Notes under the pieces: generated by a model
Databases searched by the model: none
What the model saw: the letters and a program-made list of their open reading frames with translations, nothing else
Told to the model about the DNA's origin: nothing
Position numbers and translations under genes: made by a program
From: Hamadaea flava
GTDB taxonomy: Bacteria; Actinomycetota; Actinomycetes; Mycobacteriales; Micromonosporaceae
Length of the DNA: 64,000 nucleotides
Direction of reading: 5' to 3'
Assembly (NCBI RefSeq): GCF_024172085.1
Contig: NZ_JAMZDZ010000001.1
Coordinates: 3,472,001 to 3,536,000, forward strand
Shown: positions 25,095 through 32,787 of the stretch, in pieces
Layout: each line of letters starts with the position of its first letter
Numbering within the stretch: the stretch's first letter is position 1

Positions 25095-25667
25095 ATGTCG
25101 AAGCTCTTCCTCGCTCAGGAGCCGGCCGCCGACGAGATGCTCGCGACCGACCCGCTGGCACTGCTCATCGGGATGCTCCTCGACCAGCAGCAGCCCCTGG
25201 AGAAGGCGTTCGCGGGGCCGTTCCGGCTGGCCGAGCGGCTCGGCGTACAGCATCTCGACGCGGCGGCCATCGCCGGGCACGATCCGGAGGACTTCGCCCG
25301 GATCTACGCCGTCCCCCCGGCCATCCATCGCTATCACGGCTCGATGGCGCAGCGTACGCAGCAACTCTGCCAAGCCGTCACCGACGAGTACGACGGCGAC
25401 GCCGGCCGGATCTGGGGCGAGGCGGCCGACGGCAAGGACCTCTTCAACCGGCTGACGGCACTGCCCGGCTACGGCAAGCAGAAGGCGCACATCCTCATCG
25501 CCCTGCTCGGCAAGCAGCTCGGCGTGCAGCCGGCGGGGTGGCGCGAGGCGGCCGGGGCGTACGGCGAGGAGGGGTCGTTCCGTTCGGCGGCCGACATCGT
25601 CGACGCGGCCTCCCTGACGAAGGTACGCGAGTACAAGAAGGCCGCGAAGGTTGCGGCGAAGGGTTAG
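25095..25667 (+). CDS. HhH-GPD-type base-excision DNA repair family protein
   Basis: 190 residues with the ATDPLALLIGMLLDQQQPLEKAF start and the helix-hairpin-helix region LTALPGYGKQKAHILIALLG of the actinobacterial HhH-GPD family (relatives of endonuclease III/AlkA). There is no iron-sulfur cluster, and the catalytic Lys/Asp pair is not obvious, so glycosylase activity is uncertain. ATG 25095. Its stop overlaps the convergent DUF4239 gene by 4 bp. Confidence 0.83.
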   Translation: MSKLFLAQEPAADEMLATDPLALLIGMLLDQQQPLEKAFAGPFRLAERLGVQHLDAAAIAGHDPEDFARIYAVPPAIHRYHGSMAQRTQQLCQAVTDEYDGDAGRIWGEAADGKDLFNRLTALPGYGKQKAHILIALLGKQLGVQPAGWREAAGAYGEEGSFRSAADIVDAASLTKVREYKKAAKVAAKG

Positions 25668-26431
25668 GGCAGGCCGCGTAACCGGGCGAGCGCGGTCGTC
25701 AGGCTGTCCGGGGTGACCGCGAACGCCCGGCTGAGCGGGTACTCCACCTGGTAGAGGACGAAGAGCAGCAGCGCGATCATCGCACCGACGACGGCCATCA
25801 TGAGCCCGTTCGGGAAGGTGCGCTCCAGCCCGAACAGGTAGAGGAACACCACGCTGACCAGCCCACCGGCGATCAGCACCGGCCAGAGCAGGCCGGGCAT
25901 TCCTTCCCCGGCGGCTTGCAGGCGGCCGCTCCGAGCCCCGGCCGCCGCGCTGATCTGGGCGCTGAGCTGGGCGTACGCGTTCTGCTCCGGATCGGTCTGG
26001 GGGTGTACGGCGTCGACTCGCCGGCGCAGCTCCGTGAAGAGCAGTTCGGCCCCGTCGTCCGGTTCGTGGCGTACGCGTAACCGCGTCCACTCCGGACCGG
26101 TCGCCTCCCCGAGGTACGCCACGATCAGGTCGCGTACCTCGGTTCGGTCGGCCGGGGCGAGTTGGTCGGCCGACCAGTACGCCTCGACGAGGCTGCCGGC
26201 TTCGAGGTCGGTGCTCGACGCGGCGGCCGACCGGGGTTCCCAGATGGCGATCGCGGCGATGGCGATGAGGATGGCGTACGCCATCCCGATGGTGGCGTAG
26301 AGCGTGCTGGCGGCGTCCGTGTCGGCGACCAGCCATCGGCGCGGGACGACCTTGGAGATCAGGAGGAAGCCACCGACCGACGCGGCGGCGGCCCCGACTG
26401 TGACGAGTGTTCCGGTGAGCATGACATCCAT
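25664..26431 (-). CDS. DUF4239 (bestrophin-like) membrane protein
   Basis: 255 residues, four transmembrane segments (two at about 6-26 and 44-64, two at about 184-202 and 211-230) enclosing a soluble helical middle, the layout of DUF4239. Bestrophin-like channel activity is only suggested. It is the last gene of a four-gene minus-strand cluster headed by the encapsulin shell gene, 16 bp after the preceding gene. It carries two TTA leucine codons (codons 118 and 251), rare in this DNA and shared in the cluster with the geosmin synthase. Confidence 0.78.
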   Translation of the reverse strand: MDVMLTGTLVTVGAAAASVGGFLLISKVVPRRWLVADTDAASTLYATIGMAYAILIAIAAIAIWEPRSAAASSTDLEAGSLVEAYWSADQLAPADRTEVRDLIVAYLGEATGPEWTRLRVRHEPDDGAELLFTELRRRVDAVHPQTDPEQNAYAQLSAQISAAAGARSGRLQAAGEGMPGLLWPVLIAGGLVSVVFLYLFGLERTFPNGLMMAVVGAMIALLLFVLYQVEYPLSRAFAVTPDSLTTALARLRGLP

Positions 26432-26447
26432 CGGGAGCCCCCCAAGG

Positions 26448-30463: not shown

Positions 30464-30492
30464 GAGATCAGCGGCCTTGGCAGGACTGTCAA
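30464..30492 (-). promoter_or_regulatory. Candidate promoter of the encapsulin operon
   Basis: Minus-strand TTGACA at 30492-30487, a consensus -35, with GATCTC 17 bp further on, a poor -10. It lies in the 183-bp region between the divergent shell and terpene cyclase genes. Confidence 0.35.
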
Positions 30493-30525
30493 GCTAAATC
30501 ACCATTGGAGGTGAAATCACGTGCT

Positions 30526-32787
30526 ATGGGCGATTCGATGGGGTGGGATCAGGAGAGCACACCGGCGCCGGTCCTGCCGGCGCCGGTTCTTCCAGAAGGG
30601 TCGCTGCCCATGTCACAACCATTCCGGCTGCCCGAGTTCTACGTCCCGCACCCGGCCCGGCTGAGTCCCCACCTCGAGTACGTCCGCGTCCACAGCAAGG
30701 CCTGGGCGCGCGAGATGGAGATGATCGAGGGTTCCGGGATCTGGGACGAGCAGACGTACGACTCCCATGATTACCCGCTGCTCTGTGCGTATACGCACCC
30801 CGACGCCTCGGCGGACCGCCTGGCGCTGGTGACGGACTGGTACGTCTGGGTCTTCTTCTTCGACGACCACTTCCTGGACGTCTACAAGCGTACGCAGGAC
30901 CGCGACGGAGCCAAGTCCTATCTGGACCGCCTACCCGCGTTCATGCCGATCGGCGGCGAATCGATGCCGACTCCGGCGAACGCGGTCGAGCGAGGGCTGG
31001 CCGACCTGTGGACACGAACCGTTCCGGCGATGTCGGCCGCCTGGCGGGAACGGTTCGCCGAGGCCACCCTGCATCTGCTCCAGGAATCGCTGTGGGAGCT
31101 GGGCAACATCAGCGAGAAGCGCATCCCGAACCCGGTCGAGTACGTCGAGATGCGCCGCAAGGTGGGCGGCGCGCCCTGGTCCGCCGGGCTCGTCGAGTTC
31201 GCCGTGGCGGCGGAGATCCCGGCGGCCGTCGCCCGCACCCGGCCGTTACGCGTCCTCCGGGACACCTTCTCCGACGGCGTACACCTGCGCAACGACATCT
31301 TCTCCTATCAGCGGGAGACCGAGCAGGAGGGCGAGGTCAACAACGGCGTACTGGTGGTCGAGCACTTCCTGGGCTGTTCGCCGCAGGAGGCCGCCGACAC
31401 CGTCAACGACCTGCTCACCTCGCGGCTGCATCAGTTCGAGAACACCGCGCTGACCGAACTGCCCGGCCTGTTCGCCGAGCACCACCTGGACCCGGCCCGG
31501 CAGGCGGACACCCTCCGCTACATCCAGGGGCTGCAGGACTGGCAGAGCGGCGGCCACGAATGGCACCTGCGGTCGTCGCGGTACATGAACAAGCTCGCCA
31601 CTGCGGCCCTCCCGGTTCCGCCGAGCGCGTTCGCCGGGCTCACCCGCAGCTTCAGTCACGTGCCGCACCAGGCGGTCGGGCACCTCCCGCTCCCGGCGAT
31701 CCCCATGCCGTACGCGACCAAGCAGAGCCCGCATCTGCACGCCGCTCGGCGCAACACGATCGACTGGGCGGCCCGCATGGGCATGCTCGGTCCCACTCCC
31801 GGACTGTTCGGGAGCGGCCTGTGGACGGCGCCGCTGGTGGCCGGGTTCGACTTCGCGTACTGCGCCGCCATGGTGCACTGGCGGGCGTCGGGGCCGGAGC
31901 TGGACCTGTCCTCGCAATGGCTCGCCTGGGGCACCTACGGCGACGACTACTTCCCGCACGTCTTCGGGCGTACGCGGGACTTCGCCGGCGCGAAGGCGTT
32001 CACCCAGCGGATGCGGCTGTTCATGCCGCTGTCCGGGCCGGCCTCCGGCGTGATCCCGGCCAACCCGGTCGAGCTGGGGCTGGCCGATCTCTGGGCCCGG
32101 ACCGCGATCACGATGGACGACCGCGCCCGGCACGAGTTCCGGGACGCCGTGCTGGGCATGGTCGACAGCTGGCGGTGGGAGCTGCTCCAGCAGAGCCAGA
32201 ACCGGGTCGCCGACCCGGTGGACTACCTGGAGATGCGCCGGTTCACCTTCGGCTCGCAGCTCACCATGAGCCTGTGCCGGATCACCCGGTCGGACGTCGT
32301 CCCGGCCGAGGTGTATCAAAGTCGTCCACTGCGGGCACTGGACGACTCGGCGGCCGACTACGCCTGTCTCACCAACGACCTGTTCTCCTACCAGAAGGAG
32401 ATCCAGTACGAAGGTGAGCTGGCCAACGGCGTACTGGTGATCCAGCGGTTCCTGAACTGCGACGCGCTCACCGCCTCGGCGATCACCGCCGACCTCATGG
32501 AGGCCCGGCTCCGGCAGTTCGAACACCTCGTCGCCGACGACCTGCCCCGGCTCTTCGCCGATCAGCGGCTGTCCACCGAGGTACGCACGGCGCTGCTGAG
32601 CTACGCCGACGAGCTACGGGACTGGATGGCCGGCATCCTGCGGTGGCATCAGGGGACCACGCGCTACGACGAGGCGTCCTTACGGGACCGGTACGCCTCG
32701 CCGAAGCCGTCGGTGCCGATGCCGACCGGGCTGGGCACTTCGGCCGCCCGGCTCCCCTCGCTCAGCTCGCCGGCCGGACCAGGCTGA
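30526..32787 (+). CDS. Germacradienol/geosmin synthase (two-domain terpene cyclase)
   Basis: 753 residues. The N-terminal cyclase (FPP to germacradienol and germacrene D) has DDHFLD at 113-118 and NDIFSYQRE at 256-264. The C-terminal domain (germacradienol to geosmin) has DDYFP at 473-477 and NDLFSYQKE at 617-625. Homologs usually begin at the position of M29 ([15 protein letters not shown]). The extra 28 residues hold a duplicated PAPVLP unit and may be a cargo-loading peptide, unless translation starts at ATG 30610 (AGAAGGG 9 bp before). ATG 30526 has GGAGG 14 bp upstream. Two TTA codons (241, 719). Its 3' end overlaps the S41 peptidase by 26 bp. Confidence 0.94.

Follow-up and report, generated by a model that had tools for sequence, protein, structure and literature searches.

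A family 2B encapsulin operon divergent to a geosmin synthase gene

We analysed a 64,000-nucleotide stretch of the Hamadaea flava genome (contig NZ_JAMZDZ010000001.1, positions 3,472,001 to 3,536,000; hereafter the window, whose own numbering is used below) and found a family 2B encapsulin operon and, transcribed away from it, a gene for a two-domain geosmin synthase. The encapsulin shell probably takes up the geosmin synthase, with a polyprenyl diphosphate synthase encoded directly behind the shell gene as a separate client. We infer that the shell would assemble into an HK97-type particle, and that the geosmin synthase would be taken up through its C-terminal tail and, within the shell or on it, would use farnesyl diphosphate (FPP) of the cell pool to make geosmin. 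The prenyl synthase, co-expressed with the shell, would probably be a second client that makes a C20-type chain and not the geosmin substrate. An enzyme-plus-shell system is a plausible reading of these genes, and such systems have been published as a class. The weak points of an earlier, sequence-only reading of this DNA were the source of the substrate and the role of a cyclic nucleotide monophosphate (cNMP)-like domain in the shell; synthesis in one compartment and gating by cNMP, both of which it had proposed, lack support. The window belongs among the protein compartments for odour terpenes, a class that is widespread and little tested.

The shell, cyclase and prenyl synthase genes named in the sequence-only reading were all present, with family matches far beyond chance. 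The shell gene (28915-30342, minus strand) encodes a protein of 475 residues with an HK97-type core and an inserted cNMP-like domain. Its score of 775 bits against the NCBIfam model encap_f2b (NF041163; cut-off 400) confirmed the earlier assignment to family 2B as an EshA-type shell with a cNMP insert. The core is supported by homology to the Pfam SrpI-like family PF19307 (463 bits) and to the solved chain 6x8m (E 5e-89), which is a 2A encapsulin (PMC8346489). Ahead of the PF19307 match lies a cNMP_binding domain (PF00027, residues 170-257 of the long open reading frame (ORF)). The solved chains 9bix, 9bje and 9bhu, deposited as two Crp/Fnr regulators and one nucleotide-binding protein, match the shell over nearly its full length.

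The polyprenyl, probably geranylgeranyl-type, diphosphate synthase (27786-28922, minus strand; 378 residues; PF00348, NF041169, NF045549) most likely starts at 28922, where its ATG overlaps the shell stop codon (CATGACTGA). This overlap, kept in the relatives L096, L097 and L123 and not in L099, upheld the translational coupling proposed earlier. On the plus strand, the geosmin synthase gene (30610-32787) encodes 725 residues. The protein scored 1125 bits against the NCBIfam model f2_encap_cargo3 (NF041168), just short of the cut-off of 1200, and matched the solved geosmin synthase domain 5dz2 (E 1e-158). Each of its two domains retains its pair of metal-binding motifs, and its earlier description as a divergent two-domain geosmin synthase stood. 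Its start is most likely at 30610, because L097 does not preserve the frame upstream and L096 has lost the ATG at 30526. An N-terminal extension from starts at 30505 or 30526 was considered as a possible tag and rejected because this frame is not conserved.

The divergent order of cyclase and shell-prenyl synthase is common to L096, L097, L099 and L123, and comparison with L096 indicated purifying selection on all three genes (dN/dS 0.11 for the shell, 0.11 for the cyclase and 0.15 for the prenyl synthase). The H. flava genome is 8.86 Mb in one contig, and Hamadaea metagenome-assembled genomes contain the named geosmin synthases nearest to that of the window (93% and 89%). The earlier statement that no geranyl diphosphate (GPP) methyltransferase lies nearby agrees with a Pfam search of 10 chosen neighbouring ORFs (21407-38636), none of which matched; the ORF at 24160-24966 is a methyltransferase of another family (PF04672).

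The geosmin synthase as likely cargo

NCBIfam models exist for the shell and for both cargo classes. Terpene cyclases of 2B systems have been divided into 2-methylisoborneol (2-MIB)-synthase-like and geosmin-synthase-like groups, for which a C-terminal or linker tag has been proposed (PMC8346489). A candidate for the C-terminal tag is present in the window's geosmin synthase (32719-32751, plus strand); its translation is identical to the published consensus at 10 of 11 positions, and 11 more residues follow it. With this near-perfect tag and the match to a cargo-class family model, the view of the cyclase as likely cargo held up.

We surveyed 91 shell-bearing loci other than the window, a fetched set and not a random sample, which includes six 2A loci and one doubled locus. 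Within 6 kb of the shell, both enzymes were encoded at 29 loci, the cyclase alone at 26, the prenyl synthase alone at 16, and neither at 20. The survey of relatives for linked geosmin synthases that the sequence-only reading had suggested covered 80 named geosmin synthase loci, counted within the stretch around each, and some of these stretches were truncated where a contig ends. It found a shell at 28, a prenyl synthase match at 18 and both at 16, and half of the prenyl synthase matches (9/18) were only 30-38% alike.

The association was strong at the level of whole genomes. Among 249 genomes at the level of the order, 42 had a cyclase match, and all 40 that had a 2B shell were among them (40/42 and 40/40), with partial and broken cyclase matches included and 11 genomes with only insert-less shells set apart as 2A. 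A cyclase without a 2B shell match was found in this set in G118 and G228 only, and the G228 match is single-domain-sized. Among 345 genomes at the level of the class, the corresponding numbers were 81, 86 and 80 (80/81 and 80/86), with 14 genomes set apart as 2A-like and the partial shells of G341, G407, G512 and G520 counted as 2B. Geosmin synthases are thus tied to 2B shells at the genome level also without gene adjacency, and geosmin synthesis may be tied to these shells generally.

Variant arrangements were also seen in the survey. In the related genomes of L086 (8147-10157) and L087 (8089-10087), the two cyclase domains are encoded as separate frames that lie between two shells, and both frames end in a GLGT-type motif. 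The shell-linked two-domain cyclases of L075, L076, L077, L080 and L084 are 32-41% identical to that of the window, and their product is possibly not geosmin.

The prenyl synthase and the source of the substrate

The best NCBIfam match of the prenyl synthase was f2_encap_cargo4 (NF041169; 434 bits, just under the cut-off of 450), and the best model outside the cargo classes was the geranylgeranyl diphosphate (GGPP) synthase IdsB (NF045549; 332 bits, cut-off 475). Residues at position -5 of the first Asp-rich motif, and an insertion in it, are linked to prenyl chain length. The window's enzyme has F at -5 and no insertion, and in this it resembles chains named GGPP synthase (1wy0, with Y at -5, and 5jfq, with F at -5); the FPP synthase 5ayp has the insertion. 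F at -5 was found in 34/34 shell-linked prenyl synthases (HNFSL in 32, HNFTL in one and HNFAL in one). Family score and motif together suggest that the enzyme is probably of the geranylgeranyl type.

These data bear on the proposal of the sequence-only reading that one compartment serves both substrate making and geosmin cyclisation, the prenyl synthase making FPP inside the shell and handing it to the geosmin synthase there. The co-location of cyclase, shell and prenyl synthase at 29/91 shell loci, the same gene order in four close relatives and the standing of both enzymes as named cargo classes (PMC8346489) are in its favour. However, the IdsB model outscored the FPP synthase model (332 against 173 bits, both below cut-off), and the first Asp-rich motif does not set the 29 prenyl synthases that have a cyclase in the stretch apart from the 5 that have none (of the 5, L088 begins at a contig edge; L053 and L101 represent one locus). 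Moreover, 26 cyclase-shell loci have no prenyl synthase within 6 kb. Polyprenyl transferase cargo is expected to have a disordered domain of 50-100 residues at its N-terminus; the window's prenyl synthase has about 36 residues before the family model, and L099 and L123 lack this extension. We therefore consider the proposal unlikely.

Several observations weigh against uptake of the cyclase with the prenyl synthase as a separate client, the reading that we prefer. The linker between the cyclase domains carries no copy of the tag. Among 187 geosmin synthases other than the window's own, a C-terminal copy, defined as a match at 7/11 positions at least, was present in 57/70 shell-linked and 91/117 unlinked proteins, and either copy in 68/70 and 108/117, respectively; the tag was therefore not enriched in shell-linked enzymes, and the expectation that it would be commoner there was rejected. 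This count excluded matches below 600 bits or shorter than 600 residues, sequences that run beyond the stretch and rows with identical cores; linkage in the class genomes was taken from the co-occurrence tables, and L067, where the cyclase reaches the edge of its contig and the shell stands at the start of a different one, was scored as linked. Both enzymes fall just under the cut-offs of their cargo models (1125 against 1200 and 434 against 450 bits), kinship among the genomes counted for co-occurrence makes Fisher values overstate the evidence, and the predicted prenyl chain length is drawn solely from the motif and the family score. Since it is equally common in unlinked geosmin synthases, the tag is a family trait of these enzymes and by itself no proof of loading. 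With a 2B shell in nearly all of these genomes, the cyclase may be loaded in trans.

The cNMP-like domain of the shell

The cNMP_binding domain inserted in the shell had suggested that a cyclic nucleotide binds there and opens or closes the compartment. In E. coli CRP, R82 is the arginine that binds the phosphate of the cyclic nucleotide, and E72 is likewise given as a binding-site residue. When shells were aligned to E. coli CRP, the R82 column held W, Y or F in 23/23 shells, and the E72 column held E in 7/23. Gating is doubtful because the phosphate-binding arginine is replaced by an aromatic residue in every one of these shells. A shell linked to a geosmin synthase that lacks the domain (L215) also argues against it, and we now regard gating as very unlikely. 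At L215 (7965-11230; genome G266), the geosmin synthase gene adjoins the gene for this shell without a cNMP part, and a tree of the HK97 part placed the shell with the 2B shells, on a long branch, and not with the six 2A shells.

The shell operon reaches a bestrophin-like membrane protein

The interval given in the sequence-only reading (25664-32787) takes in two further genes that had gone undescribed. Behind the prenyl synthase gene, after gaps of 6 and 16 bases, the operon continues on the minus strand with a gene for a DUF6923-like protein (26448-27779; PF21959, with a weak GEVED match below cut-off) and a gene for a bestrophin-like membrane protein (25664-26431; PF14023, 160 bits). The DUF6923-like gene is in the same position in L096, L097, L099 and L123, and the bestrophin-like gene in L097, L099 and L123; in L096 it runs off the contig.

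Bestrophin-like genes were concentrated near 2B shells. PF14023 was found as 75 genes in 58/249 genomes, and 17/75 lay within 5 kb of a 2B shell, against 0.15 expected by random placement; these 17 come from nine genera and so are not independent. With the window protein as tblastn query, a bestrophin-like neighbour was detected at 20/45 shells with a prenyl synthase and at 1/46 without; at the lone exception, L094, the prenyl synthase is in two pieces and below cut-off, and the bestrophin-like gene of L235 was found by HMM and missed by tblastn. A separate count gave 18/75 shell loci and 0/84 loci without a shell. Anywhere in the genome, PF14023 was present in 36/40 2B genomes of the order set against 22/209 others, and in 54/86 2B genomes of the class set, where family f32 had it in 0/25; the f32 loci L220 and L221, taken with wide flanks, have a cyclase and a shell and no prenyl synthase match. 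PF14023 genes beside prenyl-synthase-bearing 2B shells occur at L090, L091, L094, L097, L099, L123, L144 and others.

The extension of the shell operon to a bestrophin-like membrane protein is new here: section 8 of PMC8346489 names neither DUF6923-like nor bestrophin-like genes, and a search of open-licence papers, supplements apart, found none joining encapsulin with bestrophin. We tentatively suggest that the bestrophin-like protein may be a membrane partner of the shell and prenyl synthase, for example in handing over the prenyl product at the membrane, with the cyclase as a second client of the same shell. It is also conceivable that the shell serves the prenyl synthase and bestrophin-like protein while the geosmin synthase is an unloaded neighbour, since shell, prenyl synthase, DUF6923-like and bestrophin-like genes are close together on one strand and the cyclase gene is on the other, and bestrophin-like genes follow the prenyl synthase and not the cyclase. 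We consider this quite improbable, as the cyclase retains a near-perfect C-terminal tag and a cyclase alone stands beside the shell at 26/91 loci.

Related systems

The pairing of a cyclase and a prenyl synthase beside one shell is already known. Andreas and Giessen (2021, PMC8346489) found terpene cyclases in 904 2B operons, polyprenyl transferases in 900 and both enzymes together in 165 systems; the share of geosmin-synthase-like enzymes among the 165 is not given in section 8 of that paper. The window shares with the 2B systems described there the shell type, the cyclase type, the C-terminal tag and a polyprenyl transferase in the cluster, but differs in having no linker copy of the tag, a divergent cyclase gene, and the DUF6923-like and bestrophin-like genes.

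Geosmin synthase genes adjoin such shell-type genes elsewhere (PMC7251104, PMC12224551, PMC3827479). In the geoA-cnb clusters of cyanobacteria and Deltaproteobacteria, a geosmin synthase gene likewise neighbours genes for cNMP-domain proteins, which that work names Crp/Fnr-type regulators; two cnb genes follow geoA, whereas the window has one divergent shell gene and a prenyl synthase (PMC7251104). The tpc3 cluster of Saccharopolyspora erythraea (SACE_3976/SACE_3977) also combines a cNMP-domain gene with a terpene synthase and is geosmin-linked, and of the two loci a prenyl synthase is described only for the window, going by the account of tpc3 in PMC3827479. The eshA-mibA-mibB operon of Streptomyces (PMC8549240) is for 2-MIB, unlike the geosmin expected for the window, and a set comparable to it stands at the second shell of the H. 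flava genome.

This second 2B shell (L036, 7993-11562; about 2290992-2294561 of the genome) lies beside a divergent gene for a 2-MIB-synthase-like cyclase (NF041167, 389 bits, cut-off 400) and a gene for a GPP methyltransferase (NF041943, 446 bits, cut-off 400). The 2-MIB-synthase-like cyclase has a tag-like string near its start, and PTGLGTSA is common to both odour cyclases. Because each odour cyclase of this genome stands beside a shell of its own and the two cyclases share this string, shell-cargo specificity is directly testable.

The divergent intergenic region

The region between the cyclase and shell genes (30343-30609) was compared among the Hamadaea relatives. Its part at 30343-30520 is 97.8% identical to L096 and 92.2% to L097, and synonymous-site divergence was 0.21-0.32 in the cyclase, shell and prenyl synthase genes; this higher conservation suggests that both sides may share control. 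A palindrome at 30499-30514 (TCACCATTGGAGGTGA) is kept in L096 and L097 and not in L099 or L123. It has one match in the window against 0.08 expected, with at least one match in 6/100 shuffles. It carries the outer TCACC/GGTGA of the published BldM Group I site without the inner CG pairs (PMC4125116), which makes control by BldM a lead. Just downstream of the palindrome, a GTG reading frame with a good ribosome site begins at 30521.

An Rfam scan for structured RNA upstream gave only one match, to Sernc350, an RNA antisense to SACE_3976 of the tpc3 cluster, and this lies inside the shell gene and opposite to it (29792-30291, plus strand; 207 bits). The match may be carried by the conservation of the shell coding sequence.

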